A stretch of 64,000 bases of DNA from Georgenia subflava (GTDB taxonomy: Bacteria; Actinomycetota; Actinomycetes; Actinomycetales; Actinomycetaceae), in assembly GCF_009193155.1 (NCBI RefSeq), contig NZ_VUKD01000003.1, positions 186,001-250,000 on the forward strand, read 5' to 3'. Below the pieces are notes generated by a model. It saw only the letters and a list, made by a program, of their open reading frames with translations, was not told the origin of the DNA and searched no databases. Position numbers and translations under genes: made by a program. The first letter of the stretch is position 1, and every line of letters starts with the position of its first letter. Shown here in pieces: positions 3,698 to 40,548 of the stretch.

Positions 3698-4888
3698 ATG
3701 AAGACCATCGAGGACCTGGGCGACCTGCGCGGCAAGCGCGTGCTCGTCCGCTCCGACTTCAACGTCCCGCTCGACGGGACGACGATCACCGACGACGGCC
3801 GGATCCGAGCCGCGCTGCCCACCCTGCAGATGCTCGTCGCCGCCGGCGCGCGCGTCATCGTCACCGCGCACCTGGGCCGGCCCAAGGGCACCCCGGACGA
3901 GAAGTACTCCCTCGCCCCGGTGGCCGACCGCCTGGGCGAGCTGCTCGGCGCGAAGGTCACCCTCGCCAAGGACACCGTCGGCGAGGACGCCAAGGCCGTG
4001 GTCGCGGACCTGTCCGACGGCGAGATCGCCCTCCTGGAGAACATCCGGTTCGACGCCCGCGAGACCTCCAAGGACGACGCCGAGCGCGGCGCGCTGGCCG
4101 ACGAGCTGGCCGCGCTGGCCGACGCCTATGTCTCCGACGGCTTCGGCGTCGTCCACCGCAAGCAGGCCTCGGTCTACGACGTCGCCGAGCGGCTCCCGCA
4201 CGCCGCAGGCAAGCTCGTCCTGAAGGAGATCGAGTCCCTGCGCCGCGCGACCGAGGACCCCGAGCGTCCCTACGTCGTCGTGCTCGGCGGCTCCAAGGTC
4301 TCCGACAAGCTCGGCGTCATCGCCAACCTCCTCGGCAAGGCCGACCGCCTGCTCATCGGCGGCGGCATGGTGTTCACCTTCCTGGCCGCCAAGGGCCTCG
4401 AGGTCGGCTCCTCGCTCCTCGAGGAGGACCAGCTCGACACCGTCCGCGGCTACCTCGACGAGGCCGAGGCCAAGGGCGTCGAGATCGTCCTGCCCACGGA
4501 CATCGTGGTGGCGCCGGAGTTCAAGGCCGAGGCGCCGGCCACCGTGGTGGCCGCCGACGCCATCCCCGCCGACCAGATGGGCCTGGACATCGGCCCGGAG
4601 TCCCAGCAGGCCTTCGCGGCGAAGATCGCCGACGCCAAGACCGTGGTGTGGAACGGCCCGATGGGCGTGTTCGAGTTCGAGGCGTTCGCGGCCGGCACCA
4701 AGGCCGTCGCCCAGGCGATGTCCGACGCCGACGGGTTCACCATCGTCGGCGGGGGCGACTCCGCCGCGGCCGTGCGCACGCTGGGCTTCGACGAGGCCAC
4801 CTTCTCCCACATCTCCACCGGCGGCGGCGCGTCGTTGGAGTACCTCGAGGGCAAGACCCTCCCCGGCATCGCCGTCCTGGAGGACTGA
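3698..4888 (+). CDS. pgk: Phosphoglycerate kinase
   Basis: 396 aa, the normal length. It transfers phosphate from 1,3-bisphosphoglycerate to ADP. The ATG at 3698 is chosen because GAGGAGA stands 3 nt upstream; a GTG 21 nt earlier has no such site. [14 protein letters not shown] is the PGK signature near the N-terminus, followed by [17 protein letters not shown]-type ([13 protein letters not shown]), [12 protein letters not shown] and the nucleotide loop [10 protein letters not shown]. The C-terminal [13 protein letters not shown] and [14 protein letters not shown] are intact. It lies 1 nt ahead of tpiA. Confidence 0.97.
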
Positions 4889-4889
4889 C

Positions 4890-5684
4890 ATGGCAGACCG
4901 CACCCCGCTGATGGCGGGCAACTGGAAGATGAACCTCGACCACCACGAGGCCATCGCGCTGGTCCAGAAGCTCGCGTGGACGCTGAAGGACGCCAAGCAC
5001 GACTACGCCTCCGTCGAAGTCGTCGTCGTGCCGCCGTTCACCGACCTCAGGTCGGTCCAGACCCTGGTCGACGGCGACAAGCTCGACATCCGCTACGGCG
5101 CCCAGGACGTCTCCGCGCACGCCGCCGGCGCGCGCACCGGGGAGATCTCCGCCGCCATGCTGGCCAAGCTGGGCGTGAGCTACGCCGTCGTCGGCCACTC
5201 GGAGCGGCGCGAGTACCACGGCGAGTCCGACGTGCTCGTCGGCGCCAAGGCCAAGGCCGCGCTGGGCGCGGGCATCACGCCGATCGTGTGCGTGGGTGAG
5301 GGGCTGGACGTGCGCCAGGCCGGCGAGCAGGTGACGTACTGCCTCGCGCAGCTCGACGGCGTCTACGCGGAGCTCTCCGCCGAGGAGGCGGCGAAGACCG
5401 TCGTCGCGTACGAGCCCGTGTGGGCCATCGGCACCGGTGAGGTCGCGACCCCGGAGGACGCCCAGGAGGTCTGCCAGGCGGTCCGCGCCCGGCTCGCCGA
5501 GCGGTACGACCAGAGCGTCGCGGACGCCGTGCGCGTGCTCTACGGCGGTTCCGTGAAGTCCTCCAACGTTGCCTCGATCATGGCCAAGGAGGACGTCGAC
5601 GGCGCGCTCGTGGGTGGCGCCAGCCTCAAGGCCGAGGAGTTCGCGGCCATCGTGCGCTACCAGGACCACCAGGTCGGCCTCTGA
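4890..5684 (+). CDS. tpiA: Triosephosphate isomerase
   Basis: 264 aa, interconverting dihydroxyacetone phosphate and glyceraldehyde-3-phosphate. The N-terminal AGNWKMN holds the active-site Asn and Lys, VVGHSERR the electrophilic His, and [11 protein letters not shown] the catalytic Glu and mobile loop 6. YGGSVKSSN and [14 protein letters not shown] form the phosphate-binding end of the barrel. The start is 1 nt after the pgk stop, so translation is probably coupled. Its last codons and stop codon are echoed twice downstream, before a very strong hairpin. Confidence 0.97.
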
Positions 5685-5745
5685 CCCAGGAGCACCGGCT
5701 CGGCCTGTGACCCGGGAGCACCGGGTCGTGACGCAGGATCACCGG
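5666..5745 (+). repeat. Imperfect repeats copying the tpiA stop region
   Basis: The end of tpiA and its stop (TGACCCAGGAGCACCGG, 5682-5698) recurs as TGACCCGGGAGCACCGG at 5708-5724 and more loosely as TGACGCAGGATCACCGG at 5729-5745. The preceding codons (CGGCCT) are also copied once. The second copy contains CCCGG-GAGCA-CCGGG, able to form a small hairpin. Confidence 0.7.
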
Positions 5746-5774
5746 GCCGCGCTGTAACCCCTGGCCCGCCGTGC

Positions 5775-5807
5775 CGTGTGCCGCCGTCGCTCCGACGGCG
5801 GCACACG
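5775..5807 (+). terminator. Terminator-like hairpin after tpiA
   Basis: A perfect 15-bp stem with a 3-nt loop: CGTGTGCCGCCGTCG at 5775-5789 and CGACGGCGGCACACG at 5793-5807. No U-tract follows, which is common for actinobacterial intrinsic terminators. It closes the gap-pgk-tpiA unit; its 3' arm runs into the 14-bp repeat array. Confidence 0.65.
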
Positions 5808-5858
5808 CGTGTCGGCACACGCGTGTCGGCACACGCGTGTCGGCACACGCGTGTCGGC
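5803..5858. repeat. Four tandem copies of a 14-bp palindromic unit
   Basis: ACACGCGTGTCGGC is repeated perfectly four times (5803, 5817, 5831, 5845). Each unit contains the 10-bp palindrome ACACGCGTGT. The array sits between the tpiA hairpin and secG, 111 nt before the secG start, and could be a multi-site operator or a replication-slippage product. Confidence 0.85.
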
Positions 5859-5968
5859 ACGGATGCGACCGGCCCGGGCGGGTTACGGACCTGAGGACGG
5901 TCGGGATCGCTTATCCTTGTCGGGGCGCCGCGGCGCCGGCACAGCTCGAGACGACGAACGGACTTCCC

Positions 5969-6214
5969 TTGGACGCACTGCGGATCGCACTCCAGGTGCT
6001 GCTGATCCTGACCAGCTTCTTCCTGATCCTGACCATCCTCATGCACAAGGGCAAGGGTGGCGGTCTGTCCGACATGTTCGGCGGAGGGATCTCCAGCTCG
6101 GTCGGGTCCTCGGGAGTCGCCGAGCGCAACCTCAACCGGATCACCGTCGCGGTCGCCATCGTGTGGGGCGTCACCGTCGCGCTGATCGGGCTGATCCAGA
6201 AGTTCGAGTTCTGA
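5969..6214 (+). CDS. secG: Preprotein translocase subunit SecG
   Basis: 81 aa from a TTG at 5969. The first helix (ALRIALQVLLILTSFFLILTI-like, residues 3-23), the cytosolic loop HKGKGGGLSDMFGGG with SSSVGSSGVAERNL, and a second helix (VAVAIVWGVTVALIGLI) are typical of SecG, a two-helix accessory of the SecYEG channel in the membrane. An in-frame ATG at 5771 would add about 66 residues translated from the repeat array and is unlikely. The position after tpiA is conserved in many actinobacteria. No strong ribosome binding site is visible, so the exact start is uncertain. Confidence 0.9.
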   Translation: MDALRIALQVLLILTSFFLILTILMHKGKGGGLSDMFGGGISSSVGSSGVAERNLNRITVAVAIVWGVTVALIGLIQKFEF

Positions 6215-6224
6215 GGAGATCGTC

Positions 6225-6572
6225 GTGGCTGGTGGAAGTGCGATCCGCGGCTCGCGCGTCGGTGCGGGCCCCATGGGCGAGGCCGAGCGCGGGGAGGCCG
6301 CACCCAGGGTCTGGGTGAGCTACTGGTGCTCCCAGGGGCACGAGGTACGTCCGAGCTTCGCAAAGGAGCCGGACATCGTCATCCCGGAGACCTGGGACTG
6401 CCCCCGGTGCGGGATGCCCGCCGGGCAGGACCGGGAGAACCCGCCGCTGCCCCCCAAGAACGAGCCGTACAAGACCCACCTGGCCTACGTGAAGGAGCGC
6501 CGCTCCGACGAGGACGGTGCCGCCCTCCTCGACGAGGCGCTGGCCGCGCTGCGCGAGCGCCGCGGCGGCTGA
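6225..6572 (+). CDS. rbpA: RNA polymerase-binding protein RbpA
   Basis: 115 aa from a GTG with GAGGAG (6213-6218) upstream. RbpA is an actinobacterial transcription activator that binds RNA polymerase and group I/II sigma factors and stabilises the open complex. The N-terminal tail MAGGSAIRGSRVGAGPMGE is followed by the core WVSYWCSQGHEVRPSFA and CPRCGMPAG, in which one Cys pattern of the zinc site is kept. The basic linker and the sigma-interaction helix (DEALAALRERR) close the protein. It lies 10 nt after secG. Confidence 0.95.
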   Translation: MAGGSAIRGSRVGAGPMGEAERGEAAPRVWVSYWCSQGHEVRPSFAKEPDIVIPETWDCPRCGMPAGQDRENPPLPPKNEPYKTHLAYVKERRSDEDGAALLDEALAALRERRGG

Positions 6573-6643
6573 CTGCCCAGCGGTCAGACCCGACCGAGGC
6601 TGCGCACCACCACCACGCTCGCCACGCACCTCGCACCGCCGAC

Positions 6644-6772
6644 TGACACGTTCGGCACCGTCCGAGCGCCGTGTGGGCGACGCTTTCGTGTCACTGGGCG
6701 CTAGCGGGCGTCGCGTGACACTTTTGGCACCGTCGGAGTGGCGTACGGGGGACCGGTACGTGTCACTCGGCG
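6644..6772. repeat. Two-copy 72-bp-period repeat with inverted ends
   Basis: Units at 6644-6700 and 6716-6772 share TGACACxTTxGGCACCGTCx at the left (20 of 23 bases) and CGTGTCACTxGGCG at the right, with a constant 43-nt offset. Within each unit TGACAC faces GTGTCA, so each can fold. The pair fills the 237-nt gap between convergent rbpA and opcA and is probably a bidirectional termination region. Confidence 0.75.
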
Positions 6773-6809
6773 ATGAAAGCGCGAGCGAAGGTGCTCCGTC
6801 CCCGGGTTG

Positions 6810-7733
6810 TCAGGCCTGGGAGAGCTCGCGCAGCCCCTTGGTCAGGACCCGGCCATAGGTGACGTCGGGGTCGAGCCGGCGCAGCTCCTCGATGAGCGTG
6901 TTCTCCGTGCTGCGCTTGGGCAGGTTGAGCCGCTGGTCCGGCCGGCCGGGGCGGGAGAGCACCGCCACCGTGGACCCCTCCGGCCGGGTGATGCTCACCG
7001 GTCCCGAGGCGCGCTCGAGCACGACCTTGCTGATCGCGTCGTGGCCCTCGTTGACGACGGTGGCGGGCACACCGAGGCTCACCCGCAGCCAGGCGGCGAG
7101 CAGGTCCACCGAGGGGTGCTCGGCGGACCCCGACACCTGGGCCGAGAGCACCGGCTCCTGCGGCGGCTCGTCCAGCGCCGCGGCGAGCATGCCGCGCCAG
7201 AGGGTCAGCCCTCCCCAGGCGAGGTCGGTGTCGCCGGCGGCGTAGCCGTCGGCCAGGACGTGCAAGGTGGCGACGGGGTCCTCGCAGCGGATCGCCTCGG
7301 TGATCCGCCGCTGGGCCATCGCGCCGATCGGGTCCTCGGACGGGCTCGCCGGCGGCTGGCTCGGCCACCACGCCACGGTCGGGGCGTCGGGCAGGAGCAG
7401 CGGGGTGACCAGGGTGTCCGGGTTGGCGCCGGCGCCGCCACGCGGACGGAGCACGACCACCTCGGAGGCCCCGGCGTCACCGCCGACGCGGATCTCCGCG
7501 TCCAGGCCCGCCGGTGCGGCGTCGTCGTCGGGCAGGACCACGATGACCCGCATGGGGTGCTCGTGGGAGGCGCCGTTCGCCGTGCGGATGGCCCGCTCGG
7601 CGGTGGCGTCGTCGTCCGGCCGGATGATCAGGGTGAGGACGCGACCCAGGGCGACGGCGCCGCCCTCGTCGCGCAGGGAGACCATGCGGGCGCCGACGTC
7701 CGCGGAGGTCGTGGAACGCATCGTGACGATCAT
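6810..7733 (-). CDS. opcA: Glucose-6-phosphate dehydrogenase assembly protein OpcA
   Basis: 307 aa. OpcA is found in cyanobacteria and actinobacteria, where it promotes assembly or activity of G6PDH. Family features are RVLTLIIRP near the N-terminus, TLVTPLLLPDAPTVAWWP (about residues 108-125) and a C-terminal region with GRVLTKGLREL. The start has AAGGAGC 6 nt upstream. It is the last gene of tkt-tal-pgi-zwf-opcA, 25 nt after zwf. Many actinobacteria have pgl (6-phosphogluconolactonase) next; it is absent here. Confidence 0.93.
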   Translation of the reverse strand: MIVTMRSTTSADVGARMVSLRDEGGAVALGRVLTLIIRPDDDATAERAIRTANGASHEHPMRVIVVLPDDDAAPAGLDAEIRVGGDAGASEVVVLRPRGGAGANPDTLVTPLLLPDAPTVAWWPSQPPASPSEDPIGAMAQRRITEAIRCEDPVATLHVLADGYAAGDTDLAWGGLTLWRGMLAAALDEPPQEPVLSAQVSGSAEHPSVDLLAAWLRVSLGVPATVVNEGHDAISKVVLERASGPVSITRPEGSTVAVLSRPGRPDQRLNLPKRSTENTLIEELRRLDPDVTYGRVLTKGLRELSQA

Positions 7734-7758
7734 CGGTGCTCCTTCGTCGTGGTCCGGT

Positions 7759-9288
7759 TCACGGCCGGCGCCAGCTGCGCCCGTCGCGTGCCAGCATCTC
7801 GTCTGCCCCGGCCGGTCCCCAGGTGCCCGGCGCGTACTGCTCGGGCTGGCCGTTCTCGGCCCAGTGCTCCAGGATCGGGTCGAGGATCTTCCAGGACAGC
7901 TCGACCTCCTTCTGCCGCGGGAAGAGCGGCGGGTCGCCCAGCAGGACGTCGAGGATGAGCCGCTCGTAGGCCTCGGGGGAGTCCTGGGTGAAGGCGTGGC
8001 CGTAGCCGAAGTCCATGGTCACGTCCCGCACCTCCATGGCGGTGCCCGGGACCTTGGCGCCGAAGCGGATCGTCACGCCCTCGTCCGGCTGGACCCGGAA
8101 CACCAGGGCGTTGGCGCCCAGCTCCTGGGTGGCGCCGAGGTCGAACGGCAGGTGCGGGGCCCGCTTGAACACCACGGCGATCTCGGTGACGCGCCGGCCC
8201 AGGCGCTTGCCCGCACGCAGGTAGAACGGCACCCCGGCCCAGCGCCGGGTGTCGACGTCGAGCCGGACGGCGGCGTAGGACTCGGTGGCCGAGTCGGCCG
8301 GGATCCCGTCCTCCTGCAGGTAGCCGCGCACCTGGGCGCCGCCCTGCCAGCCCGCGGCGTACTGCCCCCGGGCGGTGGCGGCGTCCAGGTCCGCGGGCAG
8401 CCCGACGGCGGAGAGGACCTTCTCCTTCTCGGCGCGCAGCGCGTCGGCGTCGAAGGAGACCGGCTCCTCCATGGCGGTCAGCGCCAGGAGCTGGAGCAGG
8501 TGGTTCTGGATGACGTCGCGCGCCGCCCCGATACCGTCGTAGTAGCCGGCGCGCGAGCCGATCCCGATGGACTCCGCCATGGTGATCTGCACGTGGTCGA
8601 CGTAGTTGGCGTTCCAGATCGGCTCGAACAGCTGGTTGGCGAAGCGCAGCGCCAGGATGTTCTGGACCGTCTCCTTGCCGAGGTAGTGGTCGATCCGGAA
8701 GACCGAGTCGGGCGGGAAGACCTCGGAGACGACGGCGTCGAGCTCCTGGGCGGAGGTGAGATCGTGACCGAAGGGCTTCTCGATGACCACCCGGCGCCAG
8801 CTGTCCGGCTCCGAGCCGGACAGGCCCGAGCGGGCCAGCTGACGCAGCACCAGGGGGAAGGCGTTGGGCGGGACCGAGAGGTAGAAGGCGTGGTTGCCCC
8901 CGGTGCCGCGCTCGGCGTCGAGCTCCTGGACCGTGGTGGCCAGCCGGTCGAAGGCCTCGTCGTCGTCGAACTCGCCGCGCACGAACCGGAAGCCGGAGGC
9001 GAGCTGCTGCCACGTCCGCTCGTCGAACGGGGTGCGCGCGTTCTCGCGCACCGCGTCGTGCACCACCGCGGCGAAGTCGGCGTCGGACCAGTCGCGCCGG
9101 CCGAACCCGGTCAGCGCGAACGACGGCGGGAGCAGGCCGCGGTTGGCGAGGTCGTACACCGCCGGCATGAGCTTCTTCTTCGCCAGGTCGCCCGTGATCC
9201 CGAAGATCACGAGGGACGACGGTCCGGCGATCCGCGGGAGGCGACGGTCCAGGGGGTCGCGCAGCGGGTTGTTGTTCGTTCCGGTCAT
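7759..9288 (-). CDS. zwf: Glucose-6-phosphate 1-dehydrogenase
   Basis: 509 aa, oxidising glucose-6-phosphate with NADP+ at the entry of the pentose phosphate pathway. The ATG at 9288 overlaps the pgi stop (ATGA) and puts the coenzyme loop FGITGDLAKKKL near residue 30; a start 36 nt further upstream is possible but would lie inside pgi. The active-site motif RIDHYLGKE is at about residue 198, with EKPFGHDL before it and FYLRAGKRL later. Length is normal. Translation is probably coupled to pgi, and OpcA follows as the assembly partner. Confidence 0.96.
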   Translation of the reverse strand: MTGTNNNPLRDPLDRRLPRIAGPSSLVIFGITGDLAKKKLMPAVYDLANRGLLPPSFALTGFGRRDWSDADFAAVVHDAVRENARTPFDERTWQQLASGFRFVRGEFDDDEAFDRLATTVQELDAERGTGGNHAFYLSVPPNAFPLVLRQLARSGLSGSEPDSWRRVVIEKPFGHDLTSAQELDAVVSEVFPPDSVFRIDHYLGKETVQNILALRFANQLFEPIWNANYVDHVQITMAESIGIGSRAGYYDGIGAARDVIQNHLLQLLALTAMEEPVSFDADALRAEKEKVLSAVGLPADLDAATARGQYAAGWQGGAQVRGYLQEDGIPADSATESYAAVRLDVDTRRWAGVPFYLRAGKRLGRRVTEIAVVFKRAPHLPFDLGATQELGANALVFRVQPDEGVTIRFGAKVPGTAMEVRDVTMDFGYGHAFTQDSPEAYERLILDVLLGDPPLFPRQKEVELSWKILDPILEHWAENGQPEQYAPGTWGPAGADEMLARDGRSWRRP

Positions 9289-10970
9289 GACGGTGCGGGT
9301 CCCCCCAGAAGGCCGGCGAGCCACGACAGCGCGTCCGGGCTGGTCACGTGCAGGCGAAGCACCGGCCGGCCGAGCTCGGCGAGCACGCGGGCGTCGCCGG
9401 CGGCCTGCGCCGAGATCAGGGTGGTGAAGTCGAAGTCACGGCCGGGGATGTCCACGTGCGCGCGCGGCGACGCGGTGATCTGCAGGAACACCCCGACGGC
9501 CGGGCCGCCCTTGTGCAGCTGGCCGGTGGAGTGCAGGAAGCGCGGACCCCAGCCGAAGGTGACGGGACGACCCGTGCGCGCGGCCAGGCCGGCGCGGGTG
9601 TCGTCCAGGACGTCCGCCGCGCGGCCCTCGCGGTCGAGGTAGGCCATGACGGCGAGGTAGCCGTCCTCGCCGATCTCGGCGAGGAGCCGCTCGACCGCCT
9701 CGCCCACCGACGAGGCGCCGGTCAGGAGGCCCTTCGAGGCGCGCACCTCGACCCCGGAGTCGGTGAACGCGGGCGGCGGAGGCCCGGGCGTCTCGTCAAG
9801 CAGGGTCCGGGTGGCGGCCTTGGCGGCCTCCACGTCGGGCTGGTCGAACGGGTTGATGCCGAGCAGGCGCCCGGCGACCGCGACGGCGTGCTCCCACAGC
9901 AGCAGGGTGCCGCCGAGCGTGCCCGAGACGGTGACCTCGGTGGTCGCCGCGGCCGCCTCGTCGGCGTCGCTGTCGTCCTCGTCGGCGAGCGGGGTGAGCA
10001 GGACGGGCAGGACGTCCGGCGCCGGGCTGTCGAGCTCGGGCGCCCCGGTCTCGGCGACGACCGGCAGCAGCCCCGTCCCGGCCTTGCCGGTCGACTCGGC
10101 CACGAGCTGCTCGGCCCAGTCGCCGAGGTGGAACAGGCCTGATCCGGCGTCGACGATGACGACCTTGTCCCGCAGCGGCTCGGTGCCCCCCAGGGCCGCG
10201 CCGAGCACGAGGGCGGGGTTCGCCTCGGAGTCCTCGGCGAAGAACGGCGCGACGGCGGCCGCCTCCTCGAGCAGCTCCTCGACGTCCACCCCGGCCAGCG
10301 CGCTCGGCACGAGGCCGAACGCGCTGAGCGCGGAGAACCGTCCGCCGACCGTGGGGTCGGCCTCGAAGACCGCGCGGTAGCCGGCCTCCGCGGCCTGCTG
10401 CTGCAGTGGTGAGCCGGGGTCGGTGACCACGACCATCCGGCGCGCGGCGTCGATCCCGGCCGCGGTGAACGCGGCCTCGAACGTGCGGCGCTGGGAGTCG
10501 GTCTCCAGGGTGGTGCCGGACTTGGACGACACCACGACGACGGTGCTGCGCAGGTCGCCGTCGAGGGCCCGCCGCACCTGGCCGGGGTCGGTCCCGTCGA
10601 GGACGACGAGCTGGGCGCCGTGGGTGCCGGTGATGACCTCCGGCGCGAGGGACGACCCGCCCATGCCGCACAGGACGACCCGGTCGATGCCCTCGGCCAG
10701 CAGCTCGGCGCGCAGCCTCGCCAGCGGCTCGAGCAGCGACCGGGAGGTCTCGTGCAGGGCGGTCCAGCCCAGCCGCACCTCTGCCTCGGCCTGCGCGTCG
10801 GCGCCCCACAGCGTGGCGTCCTGCGCGCTCAGCCGGCTCGCGACCTTGTCGCTGACAAGAGTCGGCAGGTGCGTCCCGACGGCGCGGGCGGCGTCACCGG
10901 TCGCGCTGACCTCGATGACCGCGCCCTCCTCGGGCCCGGCCCACGCGATCGTCGCGGAGGGTGTGGTCAC
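9285..10970 (-). CDS. pgi: Glucose-6-phosphate isomerase
   Basis: 561 aa from a GTG overlapping the tal stop (GTGA). It interconverts glucose-6-phosphate and fructose-6-phosphate, joining glycolysis to the pentose phosphate branch. [12 protein letters not shown] and [10 protein letters not shown] are the sugar-phosphate-binding loops, and the C-terminal part carries [20 protein letters not shown]. This is the diverged actinobacterial PGI type encoded inside the tkt-opcA cluster rather than the long E. coli-type enzyme. Confidence 0.9.
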
Positions 10971-32773: not shown

Positions 32774-34735
<1,962 letters not shown>

Positions 34736-34836: not shown

Positions 34837-34874
34837 GACGCCGGTCTCTCGAGGGTGCGCGGCCGACCGGCGTC
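34837..34874. terminator. Hairpin between convergent recQ and the histidine kinase gene
   Basis: GACGCCGGT (34837-34845) pairs with ACCGGCGTC (34866-34874) across 20 nt. The 3' arm overlaps the kinase stop codon. Two GAGCCGACGAC direct repeats lie just upstream (from 34804). Confidence 0.45.
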
Positions 34875-36300
34875 AGGCTGGGGGTGCGATCGGCAGGCTC
34901 ACCCGGAAGACCGTGCGCCCGGGCTCGGACTCCGCCGAGATCGTGCCCGCGTGCTCCTTCGTGACGATGCGCCAGGCGACGTCGAGGCCGAGACCGGTGC
35001 CCTGGCCCTGCGGCTTGGACGTGAAGAACGGCTCGAAGATCCGCCTGAGCGACTCGGCCGGGATCCCGACGCCGTCGTCCTCGATCTCGACGACGGCGCG
35101 CCCGTCCTCCGACCGGGTGGTGATGGCGATCCGGCCCTTGCCCCCGACGGCGTCGATCGCGTTGTCGAGGATGTTCGTCCACACCTGGTTGAGGGTGTTG
35201 CCGTACACCCGCAGCGGCGGCAGCGAACGGTCGTACCGCTTCGCCACGTCGACGTCCTTCAGGCGGTGCGCGAGGATCACCAGGGTCTGGTCCAGGCCGT
35301 CGTGGATGTCCGTGTCGCGCTCGGTGGCACGGTCCATGTGCGAGTAGCCCTTGATGGCCTGCACGAGCTCGTCGATGCGCCGGGTGCCCTGGGCGATGGT
35401 CTCGGCCGACTCGTTCAGGGCAAGCGTGCCGGAGGTCCAGTCAATCGCGTCCGCGAGCACCGGGGCGGGGACGCAGGCCGCGATCCGCTCGAGGTCGGCG
35501 ACGGCGAAGCCTGCCTCCGAGAGCGTCGCGGCGTGCTCCCACGCCCGGTCCACGCCGCGGGACTCGAGCCAGGACTCGATCGCCTCCTCGGCCTCGCCCA
35601 CGGCCACCGGGTCCGCCGGCCCCGCCGCCGCCGACGCCTGCACCTCGTCGAGGACCTCCGTCAGGAGCCGCCAGCCCTCGGCGGTCAGGCCGGCGTCGGT
35701 GAGACGCTGCAGCGTGCGGTCCCGACGCTCGATGGTCTCCCGCAGACCCGCGTTGGCGCGCTGCACCGCGGCGGCCGGGTTGTTCAGCTCGTGGGCAAGA
35801 CCGGCCGCGAGCTTGCCGAGGGCCGCCATCTTCTCGAGGTACATCGCCCGCTCGTCGCGCTCGAGGCGGGCGTTGCGCTCCTCCAGCTCCTGCGCGTGCA
35901 GCCGCTCGGTGATGTCACGGATGAAGGTGTGCGTCGCGACCACCTCGTCACCGACCAGCCGGGAGGTCGCGTTGCCCTCGACCGGCACGGCGCGGCCGTC
36001 CTTGGTGACGAACGTGGCGGTGAAGTACTCCAGCGGCTGTCCGCCGATGGCCTTGCTGAACTCGACGCGGCAGTGGTCGAGGGAGTCGGGGTGGATGATG
36101 TCCCACACCGTCATGCCGGCGACGTCGTCGGCCGTGTAGCCCAACGTGTCTGCCCACGAACGGTTGACGAACTCGAAGGTGCCGTCCGGTCGCACGCTCT
36201 GAATCATGTCCGAGGCGTTCTCGATCACCGCCTGGTAGCGCTGCTCGCTCTCCAGCAGGCGCAGGTCGGCCGGGTCCTTCTCGACCATCAGGGACTCCAT
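34873..36300 (-). CDS. PAS-domain sensor histidine kinase
   Basis: 475 aa from the ATG at 36300; an ATG at 36288 has GGAG 8 nt before it and may be preferred. There are no transmembrane helices, so a cytosolic sensor. A PAS domain (about residues 15-135: AVIENASDMIQSVRPDGTFE, VNRSWADTLGYTADDV, FVTKDGRAVPVEGNATSR) is followed by a short coiled coil. The H-box LAAGLAHELNNPAAAVQRAN has the phospho-acceptor His near residue 170. A long helical insert of about 130 residues precedes the N-box WTNILDNAIDAV, G1 DDGVGIP and G2 GTGLGLDVAWRI. It is divergent, across 167 nt, from the REC/thioredoxin-reductase-like fusion, its likely partner. Confidence 0.93.
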   Translation of the reverse strand: MESLMVEKDPADLRLLESEQRYQAVIENASDMIQSVRPDGTFEFVNRSWADTLGYTADDVAGMTVWDIIHPDSLDHCRVEFSKAIGGQPLEYFTATFVTKDGRAVPVEGNATSRLVGDEVVATHTFIRDITERLHAQELEERNARLERDERAMYLEKMAALGKLAAGLAHELNNPAAAVQRANAGLRETIERRDRTLQRLTDAGLTAEGWRLLTEVLDEVQASAAAGPADPVAVGEAEEAIESWLESRGVDRAWEHAATLSEAGFAVADLERIAACVPAPVLADAIDWTSGTLALNESAETIAQGTRRIDELVQAIKGYSHMDRATERDTDIHDGLDQTLVILAHRLKDVDVAKRYDRSLPPLRVYGNTLNQVWTNILDNAIDAVGGKGRIAITTRSEDGRAVVEIEDDGVGIPAESLRRIFEPFFTSKPQGQGTGLGLDVAWRIVTKEHAGTISAESEPGRTVFRVSLPIAPPA

Positions 36301-36467
36301 CCTTGGCTGGGCCGAAGCCTGTGCAGAACAGGGGTTGAGCGGAGGTCCGTCCCTGTAGTGTGGCACCAGATCCCGGGCAGGTCGTGGAAAGTGCGCCCGC
36401 CGTGTGTACCCGCCCGTCCCGACGTGGGGACGTGGCAGCCGTGGCACCGGTTCGATAGGAGAGCGAC

Positions 36468-38135
36468 GTGGCCACGAAGCCGATCATCCTGACGGTCGAC
36501 GACGACACGCAGGTGCTCCAGGCGATCGCACGGGACGTCCGGCACGGTTTCGGTGAGCACTTCCGGGTGATCCGCGCCGAGTCGGGGCAGCGGGCCCTGG
36601 ACGTGCTCGAGCGCCTGCGGGTCGCCGACGAGACCGTCGCCCTCATGCTCGTCGACCAGCGCATGCCAGGCATGTCCGGCCTCGAGCTGCTCACCGCGGC
36701 GAGGCGTCTCTTCCCCGAGGCGAAGCGGGCCCTGCTCACCGCGTACGCGGACACCGACGCCGCCATCACGGCGATCAACGAGGTACGGCTGGACCACTAC
36801 CTGGTCAAGCCCTGGGACCCGCCCGAGCAGCGGCTGTTCCCCATGCTCGACGAGATGCTGGACGACTGGCTCGCCGACCACCCCCCGGAGTACCGCGGCA
36901 TCCGGGTCATCGGTCACCGGTGGTCGCAGGAGTCGCACGCCGTCCGGGAGTTCCTCGCGCGCAACCTGGTCCCGTACCGGTGGATCGACCTCGACTCCGA
37001 CGCCGAGGCCCCCGAGCTGCTCCGGCTCACCGGCGGCGCCGACCGCGACTTCCCGCTCCTGCTGTTCCCCGACGGCGCGGTCCTCGAGCGCCCGACGACC
37101 CAGGAGGTCGCCGAGAAGGCGTCGCTGCGCGGCCGCGCCGAGGTGCCGCTGTACGACCTCATCGTGGTCGGCGCCGGTCCGGCCGGCCTCGCGGCGGCGG
37201 TCTACGGGGCGTCGGAGGGCCTGCGCACGCTGATCATCGAGCGCGACGCCGCCGGCGGGCAGGCGGGGCAGAGCTCGCGCATCGAGAACTACCTCGGCTT
37301 CCCGAGCGGGCTCTCCGGTGCCGACCTCGCCAGGCGTGCGACGGCGCAGGCCCGGCGCTTCGGCGCGGAGTTCCTGCTCACGGACGAGGTGGTGGCGATC
37401 GACGGCCACGCCGGCGTCATCGGTGTCTCGCTCGGCAACGGCACCGAGCTGCGGGCGCACTCGGTCGTCGTCGCCACCGGGGTCGACTACCGGCGGCTGG
37501 ACGTGCCGGGGGCGGACCGGCTGACCGGGCGTGGGGTCTACTACGGCGCCGCCGTCTCCGAGACGTCGTCCGTGCGGGGGGAGGTGGTCCACCTCGTCGG
37601 GGCCGCCAACTCGGCCGGACAGGCGGCCCTCCACTTCGCCGCCGCCGCGGAGCGGGTGACGATCCTCGTGCGGGGCGCCGACCTCTCGGCGAGCATGTCG
37701 CACTACCTCGTCCAGCGCATCGCGGCGACGCCGAACATCGAGGTCCGCTACAGCACGGCTGTCGAGGAGGTGCGCGGGCGGGACCGCCTGGAGGAGATCG
37801 TGCTGCGCGACACCGCTGACGGGCACCTCACCACCGAACCGGCGAACGCGCTCTTCGTGCTCATCGGAGCGGTGCCGCGCACCGACTGGCTCGACGGCGG
37901 TATCGCCCGCGACGACCGCGGCTTCGTCCTCAGCGGGCCGACGGTCCGTAGGGCGGGCGCGGGACGCAGCTGGCCGCTGGAGCGGGACCCCTACCTCATG
38001 GAGACGAACGTGCCGGGGGTGTTCGCCGCGGGGGACGTGCGACTCGGCTCCGGCAAGCGGGTGGCGACAGCCGTGGGCGAGGGCGCGACGGCTGTGATGT
38101 CCGTCTGGCAGTACCGGGCCGGGACGGGTCTGTGA
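36468..38135 (+). CDS. Fused response regulator / thioredoxin reductase-like flavoprotein
   Basis: 555 aa, three modules. Residues 1-125 are a receiver domain: acidic DDD near residue 11, phospho-acceptor Asp63 in LVDQRMPG, Lys114 in LVKPW. Residues 140-210 (GIRVIGHRWSQESHAVREFL, LLLFPDGAVLERP) resemble a glutaredoxin/thioredoxin-like fold without a CxxC. Residues 225-555 are a pyridine-nucleotide flavoprotein: FAD site VVGAGPAGLAAAVYGASEG near 233, NADPH site VGAANSAGQAALHF near 376, and C-terminal GVFAAGDVR. The redox CxxC of thioredoxin reductase is replaced by VYYGAAVSE. Likely output is NAD(P)H-dependent flavin redox chemistry gated by phosphorylation from the divergent kinase; the substrate is unknown. 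Confidence 0.9.
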   Translation: MATKPIILTVDDDTQVLQAIARDVRHGFGEHFRVIRAESGQRALDVLERLRVADETVALMLVDQRMPGMSGLELLTAARRLFPEAKRALLTAYADTDAAITAINEVRLDHYLVKPWDPPEQRLFPMLDEMLDDWLADHPPEYRGIRVIGHRWSQESHAVREFLARNLVPYRWIDLDSDAEAPELLRLTGGADRDFPLLLFPDGAVLERPTTQEVAEKASLRGRAEVPLYDLIVVGAGPAGLAAAVYGASEGLRTLIIERDAAGGQAGQSSRIENYLGFPSGLSGADLARRATAQARRFGAEFLLTDEVVAIDGHAGVIGVSLGNGTELRAHSVVVATGVDYRRLDVPGADRLTGRGVYYGAAVSETSSVRGEVVHLVGAANSAGQAALHFAAAAERVTILVRGADLSASMSHYLVQRIAATPNIEVRYSTAVEEVRGRDRLEEIVLRDTADGHLTTEPANALFVLIGAVPRTDWLDGGIARDDRGFVLSGPTVRRAGAGRSWPLERDPYLMETNVPGVFAAGDVRLGSGKRVATAVGEGATAVMSVWQYRAGTGL

Positions 38136-38156: not shown

Positions 38157-38412
38157 TAGCATGGTCGTGCACCGACGGATCGGCTCGCCCCGACGGCGGC
38201 CCGTCCGCTCGGTGATCGGCCCTCGAGGGTCGGTCGTTCCTGGGTAGCAAGCGGGACCGTTCGAGTCCGACGCGTCGATCCGTAGGTCCGCGAGGCCGGC
38301 TCAGCCCCGGTGCGGTCGTCACGGCCGCTCCACCCGGCCTGTCGCCCCGTCCGCGGGGCTGTGTCCGCGTCTCCCTCGGGGGGTGCGGTCGGAAACACAA
38401 GAGGAGGACTCT
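38157..38412 (+). promoter_or_regulatory. Long structured leader of the SNF2 helicase gene
   Basis: TAGCAT (38157-38162) is a good -10 hexamer, about 250 nt before the GTG at 38413. The intervening non-coding region can fold: GATCGGCCC/GGGTCGGTC (38214-38222 with 38227-38235, TCGA loop, with G-U pairs) and GCCCCG/CGGGGC (38344-38349 with 38354-38359), plus the palindrome CGACGCGTCG (38268-38277). No open frame with coding character is seen. It could be a regulatory leader or contain a small RNA; I match it to no known family. Confidence 0.4.
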
Positions 38413-40548
38413 GTGGCTCGAGGAGCCCAGCGCCAGTCGGGCGCGCGCCGGACCGCTCCGGAGAACGGACGACGGCCCCGCAACCGCGACGAGGAGGGCA
38501 TCATCCCGGTGCTCGCGAAGGTCGTGCGCGAGGTCGAGGCGGCCGTGCAGCGCGGCCGCGTGTCACCGTCGGTCCGGACCAGGTTCCAGGTCGTCGCCCT
38601 GCTGGTGCGCGAGGAGCGCTCCCGGCAGAAGGCGGACACGACCATCACCGAGGCCCGGCGCGCCGAGCAGCTCAAGCGCCTCGACGGCATCGCCGTCATC
38701 CTCGCCAAGACCGCCGCCCGGGACACCTCCCTCCTCAGGCTGCTCGACACCGACGTCGTGCCCTCCGACGCGGCCCGCGACCTGCGCCGCAAGCTCCTCG
38801 AGGACGCCGGCATCGAGGTGCCCCCCGAGGAGCCCCCGGAGCCGGAACCGGCGGCCGCCGCCGCGCCCGCCCAGCGGCAGGTCGTGCCGCAGTCGGTCGT
38901 GTCGCGGCAGCTCGCCAACCCGTTCCTCGCGCCGGACTACTCGGCCGCGGAGAAGCGGCGGGTCCAGCCGCGCCGGCTCGCCGGCTGGGAGCTGCTCGGT
39001 CCGCTGTTCCGGTCGTTCGAGCTCGGCGGGGCCTCGTCCTGCATGGACCTGCCGGCCCCGTCCTCGTTCCACGCGCAGACCGACCTCGAGCTGATGCCGC
39101 ACCAGGCGCGGATGGTCGCCGCGGCCGCAGCCGGTCACCGCACCTTCCTGCTCGCGGACGAGCCGGGGCTGGGCAAGACGGCGCAGGCGCTGCTCGCCGC
39201 GCAGGCCGCGAACGCCTACCCGCTGCTCGTCGTCGTGCCGAACGTGGTCAAGATGAACTGGGCGCGCGAGGTCGGCCTGTGGACCCCGAACCGCCGCGCG
39301 ACGGTGGTGCACGGCGACGGCGACACGGTCGACGCCTTCGCCGACATCGTCATCGTCAACTATGAGATCCTCGACCGCCACGTCGGCTGGATCAGCGACC
39401 TCGGGTTCCGCGGCATGGTCGTCGACGAGGCGCACTACATCAAGAACAAGAAGTCCCAGCGCTCGCAGCACGTCCTGCAGATCTCCGAGCAGATCCGCCT
39501 GCGCACCGGCAGCCCGCTGCTCATGGCGCTCACCGGCACGCCGCTGATCAACGACATAGAGGACTTCCGCGCCATCTGGCAGTTCCTCGGCTGGATCGAC
39601 GAGAAGAAGCCGCTCGGCGCGCTCATGGAGGATCTCGAGGAGATCGGCCTGACGCCGGCCGACCGCGGCTTCTACCCGGCGGCTCGTTCCGCCGTCATCG
39701 AGCAGGGGATCGTCCGGCGTCGCAAGATCGACGTCGCCGCCGACATCCCGGCCCGCCGCGTGGCGGACCTGCCGGTGGAGCTCGACGACGACGCCGGCCG
39801 GTCGATCCGCGCGTCGGAGCAGGCGCTGACCCGGCGTCTGGTCTCGCGGTACGAGCGGGCGCTCGAGGCCCGCGGCCCCGACGTCCCCGAGGGGATCGAC
39901 CACGAGCTCGTCCGCCAGATCGCCAGGTCGGAGCTGTCCGGCAAGACCGCGGCGAAGTCCGAGGAGAACGTCTTCTCCATGATGCGACGCATCGGGCAGG
40001 CGAAGGCCGGCCCCGCGGCGGACTACGCGGCGCAGCTCGTGCGCAGCGTCGGCAAGGTCGTCCTGTTCGCCAAGCACGTCGACGTCATGGACGCCGCCGA
40101 GGAGACCTTCGCCGGGCGCGGGATCCAGTACGTGTCGATCCGCGGCGAGCAGTCGACGACGGCACGGCAGAAGGCGATCGACGCGTTCACGAACGACGCC
40201 GACGTCGCCGTCGCCGTCTGCTCGCTGACCGCCGCCGGGGTGGGGCTGAACCTGCAGGCCGCCTCCAACATGGTGCTCGCCGAGCTCTCGTGGACGGACG
40301 CGGAGCAGACCCAGGCGATCGACCGGATCCACCGGATCGGCCAGAAGGAGCCGGTCACGGCCTGGCGGATCATCGCCGCGCAGACCCTCGACGCGCGGAT
40401 CGCGGAGCTGATCGACAGCAAGGCCGGTCTCGCGGCCCGGGCGCTCGACGGCTCGGACGAGGAGATCTCCGCCTCGGGCGACGTGCAGCTGGAGGCGCTG
40501 GTCGCGCTCATCACCGACGCGCTCACGGAGCTGGCGGTCACCGCGTAG
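38413..40548 (+). CDS. SNF2-family DEAD/DEAH-box helicase
   Basis: 711 aa from a GTG with GAGGAGG (38401-38407) 5 nt upstream. Residues 1-180 are a charged, helical N-terminal extension. The SNF2 core has motif I LADEPGLGKTAQALLAAQ near residue 249, motif Ia VVVPNVVKMNW, motif II VVDEAHYIKN near 336, motif III ALTGTPL, then the second RecA lobe with VVLFAKHVDVMDAA, SLTAAGVGLNLQAA and QAIDRIHRIGQ. It is a dsDNA translocase in the family; no nuclease, methylase or zinc domain is attached and no restriction genes are adjacent. The stop is 13 nt from the convergent GH65 stop. Confidence 0.92.
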   Translation: MARGAQRQSGARRTAPENGRRPRNRDEEGIIPVLAKVVREVEAAVQRGRVSPSVRTRFQVVALLVREERSRQKADTTITEARRAEQLKRLDGIAVILAKTAARDTSLLRLLDTDVVPSDAARDLRRKLLEDAGIEVPPEEPPEPEPAAAAAPAQRQVVPQSVVSRQLANPFLAPDYSAAEKRRVQPRRLAGWELLGPLFRSFELGGASSCMDLPAPSSFHAQTDLELMPHQARMVAAAAAGHRTFLLADEPGLGKTAQALLAAQAANAYPLLVVVPNVVKMNWAREVGLWTPNRRATVVHGDGDTVDAFADIVIVNYEILDRHVGWISDLGFRGMVVDEAHYIKNKKSQRSQHVLQISEQIRLRTGSPLLMALTGTPLINDIEDFRAIWQFLGWIDEKKPLGALMEDLEEIGLTPADRGFYPAARSAVIEQGIVRRRKIDVAADIPARRVADLPVELDDDAGRSIRASEQALTRRLVSRYERALEARGPDVPEGIDHELVRQIARSELSGKTAAKSEENVFSMMRRIGQAKAGPAADYAAQLVRSVGKVVLFAKHVDVMDAAEETFAGRGIQYVSIRGEQSTTARQKAIDAFTNDADVAVAVCSLTAAGVGLNLQAASNMVLAELSWTDAEQTQAIDRIHRIGQKEPVTAWRIIAAQTLDARIAELIDSKAGLAARALDGSDEEISASGDVQLEALVALITDALTELAVTA

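Follow-up and report, generated by a model that had tools for sequence, protein, structure and literature searches.

The window analyzed here, a 64,000-nucleotide stretch of the Georgenia subflava genome (contig NZ_VUKD01000003.1, positions 186,001–250,000), contains a divergent gene pair that encodes a PAS histidine kinase and a three-module flavoprotein (Table 1). On balance, we think it probable that this pair forms a two-component system that acts through an NAD(P)H-flavin redox enzyme, working independently of thiols and switched by a phosphorylated receiver (REC) domain. Four properties are read directly from sequence comparisons: the domain make-up, the absence of cysteines, the tracking of the kinase with the live-receiver form, and an association with a UBP-type zinc finger (zf-UBP, PF02148). 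The original prediction had described the divergent pair correctly; the coordinates it gave (36300–38135) cover the flavoprotein gene, with the kinase mostly outside them.

The 555-amino acid flavoprotein has 80 retained relatives from many phyla (47–78% identity over nearly the full length) and is therefore not a chance open reading frame (ORF). Its receiver contains not only the predicted Asp63 and Lys114 but the full set of response-regulator residues (D11, D12, D63, T91, K114), and its Pfam score is 54.8 bits (cut-off: 30.2). The adjoining module, previously described as thioredoxin/glutaredoxin-like without a CxxC, has no Pfam match at E ≤ 0.001 and aligns with relatives that match Glutaredoxin (PF00462; L096: 2.1e-12; L061: 3.6e-4, under the family cut-off). 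WCPDC of L096 corresponds to RWSQES in the window protein, which therefore lacks the CPxC/S active site of glutaredoxins. The reductase module (Pyr_redox_2 at residues 229–539, E = 1.8e-33) retains its flavin adenine dinucleotide (FAD) and pyridine-nucleotide motifs according to Pfam and alignment, and VYYGAAVSE, the proposed replacement of the redox CxxC, indeed lies opposite the CATC site of the TrxB of the same genome, both copies of which were read. The protein contains no cysteine at all; a dithiol mechanism is thus excluded for it, and we rejected its reading as a disulfide reductase. Its score for thioredoxin-disulfide reductase (TIGR01292: 221.9 bits) is below the curated cut-off (343.45). 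By its fusion of REC to a thioredoxin reductase (TrxR)-like module, it belongs to the REC-TrxB class of response regulators.

The predicted structure of the fusion (pLDDT 88, pTM 0.77) places the reductase in the FR arrangement, the state in which NADPH reduces the flavin. In Foldseek comparisons, the reductase matched the TrxR structure 5mh4, itself in this arrangement, with a TM-score of 0.92 (by target length; rmsd 2.0), compared to 0.62 (rmsd 7.9) for 5mjk, the FO structure of the same enzyme. AhpF (4o5q) ranked first by E-value, with a match of about full length and an rmsd of 28.8.

Thiol loss across one clade

To place the window enzyme among its relatives, 208 core matches were reduced to 172 non-redundant cores by dropping rows with identical last 300 residues. 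All 172 were aligned and comprise 140 proteins with a cysteine-free site, 13 glutaredoxin (Grx)-TrxR fusions, and 19 TrxB-type proteins; three input-less enzymes with a cysteine-free site (L215–L217) stand outside the 140-member counts. None of the 140 aligned members has a CxxC at the TrxR site (0/140) or a C..C/S motif in the Grx-like module (0/140). In contrast, CxxC is retained in the 19 TrxB-type rows, and both motifs are kept in all 13 fetched Grx-TrxR fusions without an input domain (L180–L192, found by similarity to L096). Homologues that restore a CxxC elsewhere had been named as possible grounds against the original prediction; this objection mostly falls away, given that only 4/140 relatives have one in another part of the core, in two unrelated places (three Nostoc proteins, L116–L118, and L146).

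Other positions of the site are strongly conserved. Tyr359, Ser411, Tyr413, and Glu512 are among the residues that are invariant in 140/140 members, and position 365, which corresponds to the Asp located after the CxxC of TrxR, is acidic in 136/140 (Glu365 in the window). The C-terminal segment is 30 residues long in 84/140 (range: 16–66) vs. 11–12 residues in 31 of the 32 CxxC proteins, the exception (L191) being cut short. Bearing on the choice between NADPH and NADH, the first Arg of the TrxR motif HRRxxxR is kept as R402 in 139/140 members, and the second (position 403) is an Arg in only 14/140. Receivers were scored as live if they had D63 and K114-Pro, which 113/140 members do (a looser test passed 117). 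One of these (L087) lacks D12 and T91, leaving 112; D11, D12, and T91, which the filter does not involve, are each conserved in 112/113 receivers.

A tree of 92 rows, built by a quick search without bootstrap, with the motif and segment columns left out and the receiver rows thinned to 40 of 113, united the 67 rows with the cysteine-free site in one branch (SH-aLRT 100), and the presence and absence of CxxC require a single change. The nearest group comprises the Grx-TrxR fusions that have both motifs. By these alignments, the window enzyme belongs to a clade that lacks both redox motifs, and their joint absence throughout one clade is new here, as are the variety of inputs on one core, the tie of the kinase to the receiver form, and the recurrent zf-UBP partner described below. 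The label 'thioredoxin reductase' is probably wrong for proteins with the cysteine-free site.

A kinase family tied to the live receiver

The partner was confirmed as a HisKA-type PAS sensor kinase on the basis of its H-box His, its N- and G-boxes, and its HATPase_c domain, although Pfam HisKA scores 21.1 bits, under the cut-off of 26.9; an insert interrupts the dimerization and histidine phosphotransfer (DHp) region. H170, N380, D408, G410, G432, and G434 are invariant in 74/74 aligned kinases, including that of the window. The long helical insert between the H-box and N-box, which had already been pointed out, is real and conserved among these kinases, as are the flanking H- and N-box residues. 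It was modelled as four helices (residues 207–276; pLDDT 92–98 in ten-residue blocks, with one block at 80), even though the mean pLDDT of the kinase model is only 75, with most of the PAS part below 50. Foldseek with the kinase model returned ordinary histidine kinases, with no separate match to the insert among the 50 matches listed; our guess is that the insert is a dedicated docking or sensing element.

The N-terminal domains of the 74 kinases are cNMP_binding in 69, PAS in two (those of the window and of L100), and a receiver in one (L101), the bearers of the last two types being identified from their sequences; the PAS part of the window kinase aligns poorly with the cNMP domains of its relatives. 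In L101, the receiver-like N-terminus replaces the sensor domain of the insert-family kinase (6313–7839, minus strand). In four loci (L061, L062, L063, L065), a single flavoprotein gene is accompanied by three insert-bearing kinases in tandem, all three of which contain cNMP_binding in L061.

The distribution of this kinase was compared with that of the flavoprotein in an evenly drawn sample of 296 genomes from the host phylum. Using a flavoprotein match of E ≤ 1e-150 as a proxy for a live receiver, we found the kinase in 35/37 genomes with such a match vs. 1/259 others (Fisher's test: 6e-42, kinship ignored). Both misses are located at contig ends: L074 of genome G209 matches the start of the kinase weakly and over a short length, and the gene in G247 starts 406 bp from the end. 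The single additional kinase (G167) is a broken fragment with 53% identity. In 198 genomes of a second phylum, the kinase was present in 28/28 genomes with a strong match vs. 0/170 others; the 28 include two positives known beforehand, G334 and the centre, G332. Among fetched loci, hand-picked from the matches, the kinase occurs in 22/22 receiver loci (two partial, at contig ends) and in 0/18 loci with a dead receiver, a cNMP domain, or an intact Grx-TrxR. These 18 include L088, which had a PAS-only match, and L087, which keeps D63 and K114 without D12 and T91.

The kinase was also found in 67 of 80 named loci, with the nearest copy on the same strand in 62. The 13 remaining loci were considered as exceptions and rejected as such, because 11 of these genomes carry the kinase elsewhere. 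No kinase was found in the other two genomes, i.e., those of L166, whose receiver has Asp63Glu and D12Asn, and of L113, whose locus extends just 473 bp beyond the gene. The insert-bearing kinase is thus very strongly linked to the receiver form, with very few exceptions in the genomes compared, and this linkage removes the objection, foreseen in the original prediction, that the gene pair might not be conserved.

Input domains, zinc-finger partner, and genomic setting

One and the same enzyme core is found with a live receiver, a dead receiver, a cNMP-binding domain, or no input domain. Pfam cNMP_binding precedes it in L081, L084, L091, L086, L093, and L094. The dead receivers group in a single branch (SH-aLRT 99; 92-row tree), and the input-less enzymes of the second phylum (L215–L217; three of the five non-receiver loci fetched there) form their own, which led us to reject the generalization that thiol loss is always accompanied by an input domain. 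In a second tree of 97 rows, with the receiver rows thinned likewise, the six labels together require five changes, the minimum possible; here, 'dead receiver' throughout and 'cNMP' in the case of L026 and L092 were assigned by reading or similarity rather than by Pfam. The host genome itself encodes two more full-length paralogues (L006, 6815–8536, and L007, 7259–8956; 45% and 41% identical) that have no Pfam receiver match and have lost key receiver residues; only one kinase of the insert-bearing family was found in searches of this genome. L166 (8001–9641), with both substitutions in its receiver, may represent an always-on or a dead form.

A third gene recurs with the enzyme. In the host phylum, zf-UBP is present in 48/62 genomes with the cysteine-free enzyme vs. 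20/234 without (p = 1e-26, kinship ignored), including 20 of the 25 genomes in which only non-receiver forms matched, and in 20 of the 48 the zf-UBP and enzyme genes are less than 8 kb apart. In the second phylum, the counts are 21/32 vs. 2/166, with two below-cut-off matches (G357, G465) left uncounted. Nine genomes whose only match is an intact Grx-TrxR (loci L180–L188, read) were removed from the cysteine-free set before the test, and none of them has zf-UBP (0/9). Because zf-UBP also accompanies kinase-less forms, it follows the enzyme. It was matched in 23/80 named loci and is, from these counts, a recurrent third partner; an obligatory role was rejected, given its absence from 14/62 and 11/32 enzyme-bearing genomes. 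Annotated gene rows show both situations: Streptomyces fungicidicus has FAD-dependent oxidoreductase – ATP-binding protein – UBP-type zinc finger, a plasmid of S. angustmyceticus (L214) has clpB – trxA – UBP – cNMP 'thioredoxin-disulfide reductase', and Deinococcus aetherius has the enzyme paired with the kinase and lacks an annotated zf-UBP within the stretch viewed. A zf-UBP gene also adjoins the input-less enzyme of L217, and L073 encodes a kinase (4319–5986, minus strand) with a C-terminally fused zf-UBP-like domain, with a second zf-UBP nearby.

Within the named collection, the nearest locus is that of a Thermomicrobiales metagenome-assembled genome (L100), which encodes a flavoprotein with 78% identity and the kinase in the same divergent layout. 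Blastn matches to the window (34889–36269 and 36469–38135) correspond to the two genes, and neither blastn nor tblastn revealed a further shared gene in the 17.7-kb L100 locus. Among nine genomes of the window genus, including its own, the kinase (E ≤ 1e-35) and the live-receiver form occur only in the window's own; both are also present in G021, a genome from the same order. The pair therefore appears to be a two-gene unit gained by horizontal transfer. In L100, a fragment (9853–10188) that we take to be transposase-like directly adjoins the unit. The genes flanking the pair in the window (32774–34735 and 38383–40548) presumably encode RecQ-type and SNF2-type helicases, judging from their ORFs.

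Table 1 Features of the divergent kinase-flavoprotein pair (positions are those of the window).
Feature	Position	Strand	Basis or remark
PAS histidine kinase, 475 aa, divergent partner	34873–36300	−	Pfam, alignments
HATPase_c, residues 369–472	34885–35196	−	PF02518, 2.8e-25
Helical insert between the DHp helices, residues 203–278	35467–35694	−	Model and alignments
His170, H-box	35791–35793	−	Invariant in 74/74
PAS domain, residues 20–133	35902–36243	−	Pfam
Divergent intergenic region, 167 bp	36301–36467		blastn matches to nearest relative L100 end short on both sides
REC + degenerate Grx-like + thiol-free TrxR-like flavoenzyme	36468–38135	+	555 aa, GTG start, zero cysteine
Receiver domain, residues 7–120	36486–36827	+	Response_reg PF00072, 1.3e-14
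Asp63, candidate phosphoacceptor	36654–36656	+	Sequence position; half of the D63 + K114-Pro filter
Lys114 of receiver	36807–36809	+	Other half of the filter
Grx-like module, residues about 144–218	36897–37121	+	RWSQES where input-less relative L096 reads WCPDC
FAD/NAD(P)H reductase module, residues 229–550	37152–38117	+	Pyr_redox_2 PF07992; Foldseek 5mh4
VYYGAAVSE in place of CxxC, residues 357–365	37536–37562	+	Alignment with CxxC proteins
Longer C-terminal segment before last FAD motif, residues 484–512	37917–38003	+	Glu512 in 140/140

Mechanism, alternative explanations, and known systems

We infer phosphotransfer, gating, catalysis, and the acceptor from these comparisons as follows. The PAS kinase would autophosphorylate on His170 and pass the phosphate to Asp63, and the phosphorylated receiver, via the degenerate Grx-like module, would alter how accessible the FAD/NAD(P)H enzyme is or how its domains move. 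The enzyme would transfer hydride from NAD(P)H to its FAD and, the internal dithiol relay being lost, donate electrons directly to an external acceptor, either a small molecule or a partner protein. The new site would be shaped by Glu365, Tyr359, Ser411, Tyr413, and Glu512, and the zf-UBP protein would be the best candidate partner or target where the genome encodes one. The phosphorylation-gated redox output envisaged in the original prediction is supported, at the level of sequence, by the intact receiver, by an FAD/NAD(P)H core that looks intact, by the exclusion of dithiol chemistry, and by the kinase linkage, whereas gating itself, like the suggested oxidase or diaphorase activity, stays putative. 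The cNMP, dead-receiver, and input-less forms, the clade-wide loss of both motifs, and the apparent zf-UBP partner extend beyond what was foreseen. We regard the interpretation as plausible and better founded than before: a coherent new variant within a named class.

Several points weigh against a phosphorylation-switched, thiol-independent enzyme. Column 369 contains a Cys in 96/140 relatives (Val in the window), so some members may use one thiol, and the existence of input-less enzymes (L215–L217) implies that the enzyme need not be signal-gated everywhere. The FR arrangement comes from one model, with no canonical TrxB control modelled alike. Behind the E-value proxy, the receiver itself was read in 33/37 genomes of the host phylum and 2/28 of the second, and the kinase and zf-UBP counts take no account of shared ancestry. 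In the window genome, the sole zf-UBP match is distant from the pair (C6:166859). Finally, trxA adjoins 2/42 fetched loci (L084 and L091, both of cNMP type) and one annotated cNMP-type flavoprotein, and lies about 6 kb from 1/80 receiver-type loci (L108); these loci may be tied to thioredoxin.

Among the alternatives, the one we take most seriously, while holding it doubtful, is that the protein is a redox reader and not a working enzyme, in which FAD/NAD(P)H occupancy sets a conformation that acts on the kinase, zf-UBP, or another partner, turnover being incidental. This would suit the absence of both catalytic thiol motifs in one clade, the diversity of inputs on one core, and the recurrence of a small zinc-finger partner; the strong conservation of the FAD and pyridine-nucleotide motifs and of the acid near the former CxxC argues against a dead scaffold, which needs none of them, although a reader might. 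An unlikely alternative is a TrxR-like ferredoxin/flavodoxin-NAD(P)+ reductase (FNR), or a similar electron-transfer protein, under phosphorylation control. Such reductases are among the TrxR-fold enzymes without CxxC, and the Bacillus cereus FNR (6gar) is among the 50 Foldseek matches listed, but the sequence is nearer to TrxR/AhpF entries than to FNR entries.

It is quite improbable that the protein acts as a phosphate sink or in kinase feedback, with the enzyme part merely holding the receiver. The three tandem kinases per receiver protein described above would fit this explanation, but the core persists in the cNMP, dead-receiver, and input-less forms, so the enzyme is not a mere holder. 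It is hardly credible that the protein genuinely reduces thioredoxin or another disulfide, as the names given to its relatives in databases and papers would have it. Three of the 25 plasmid matches listed are named 'cyclic nucleotide-binding domain-containing thioredoxin-disulfide ...', SCO7298 of Streptomyces coelicolor is called trxB3 and polysulfide-induced in one report (PMC9952706), and trxA lies beside a few cNMP-type loci; against this stand the cysteine-free window protein, the 0/140 counts for both motifs, and two ordinary TrxB genes in the host genome, each adjoining a trxA.

Returning to the switched flavoenzyme, we tentatively extend it to a widespread, previously unrecognized module: a Grx-TrxR fusion minus both thiol relays could have become an NAD(P)H-flavin switch with interchangeable inputs (phosphorylation, cyclic-nucleotide type) that works with a bacterial ubiquitin-type (UBP) zinc-finger protein, and its receiver form would be a two-component system in which redox chemistry, and not transcription, is under control. 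The majority of response regulators bind DNA, and metabolic enzyme outputs are rarer; the present protein occurs in many phyla and is tightly tied to one kinase family. If correct, new chemistry would be needed for a TrxR-fold enzyme, many 'thioredoxin reductase' annotations, probably including 'trxB3' in Streptomyces, would be wrong, and zf-UBP, best known from eukaryotes, would be linked to bacterial signalling.

As the original prediction stated, REC-TrxR fusions are a domain class in print, described in an archaeal census (PMC5847659) and in PMC9739842, which lists SCO7297/SCO7298 as a pair of class TrxB; the class count in thermophilic cyanobacteria is one, in one of 17 genomes (PMC9953108), and SCO7298 is up-regulated on acid shock (PMC2631018). 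From its class and Streptomyces loci such as L130 and L136, SCO7298 itself presumably lacks CxxC. The literature searched, in the parts accessible and with most subscription journals outside its coverage, gave no biochemical function for these fusions. The window protein shares its domain class with these regulators, and its kinase neighbour with the S. coelicolor table; the accessible portions of the two class papers (PMC5847659, PMC9739842) give architecture, class, or pairing only, and nothing on cysteine loss, the degenerate Grx-like module, the kinase insert, zf-UBP, or input swapping.

The Grx-TrxR fusions (L180–L192) share the module order of the window clade and are its nearest group in the tree; unlike the clade, they keep both motifs, have a C-terminal segment of 11–12 residues (L191 being cut short) where the clade mostly has 30, and occur without zf-UBP in the nine genomes tested. 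AhpF and bacterial TrxR share the fold of the window enzyme, whereas their CxxC is absent from it. Although its score with the NCBIfam YpdA/Bdr model (TIGR04018), 76.8 bits, is far below the cut-off of 339.9, the window enzyme resembles TrxR-type FNR and YpdA/Bdr in lacking a CxxC, and in those enzymes the flavin hands on electrons without an internal dithiol.

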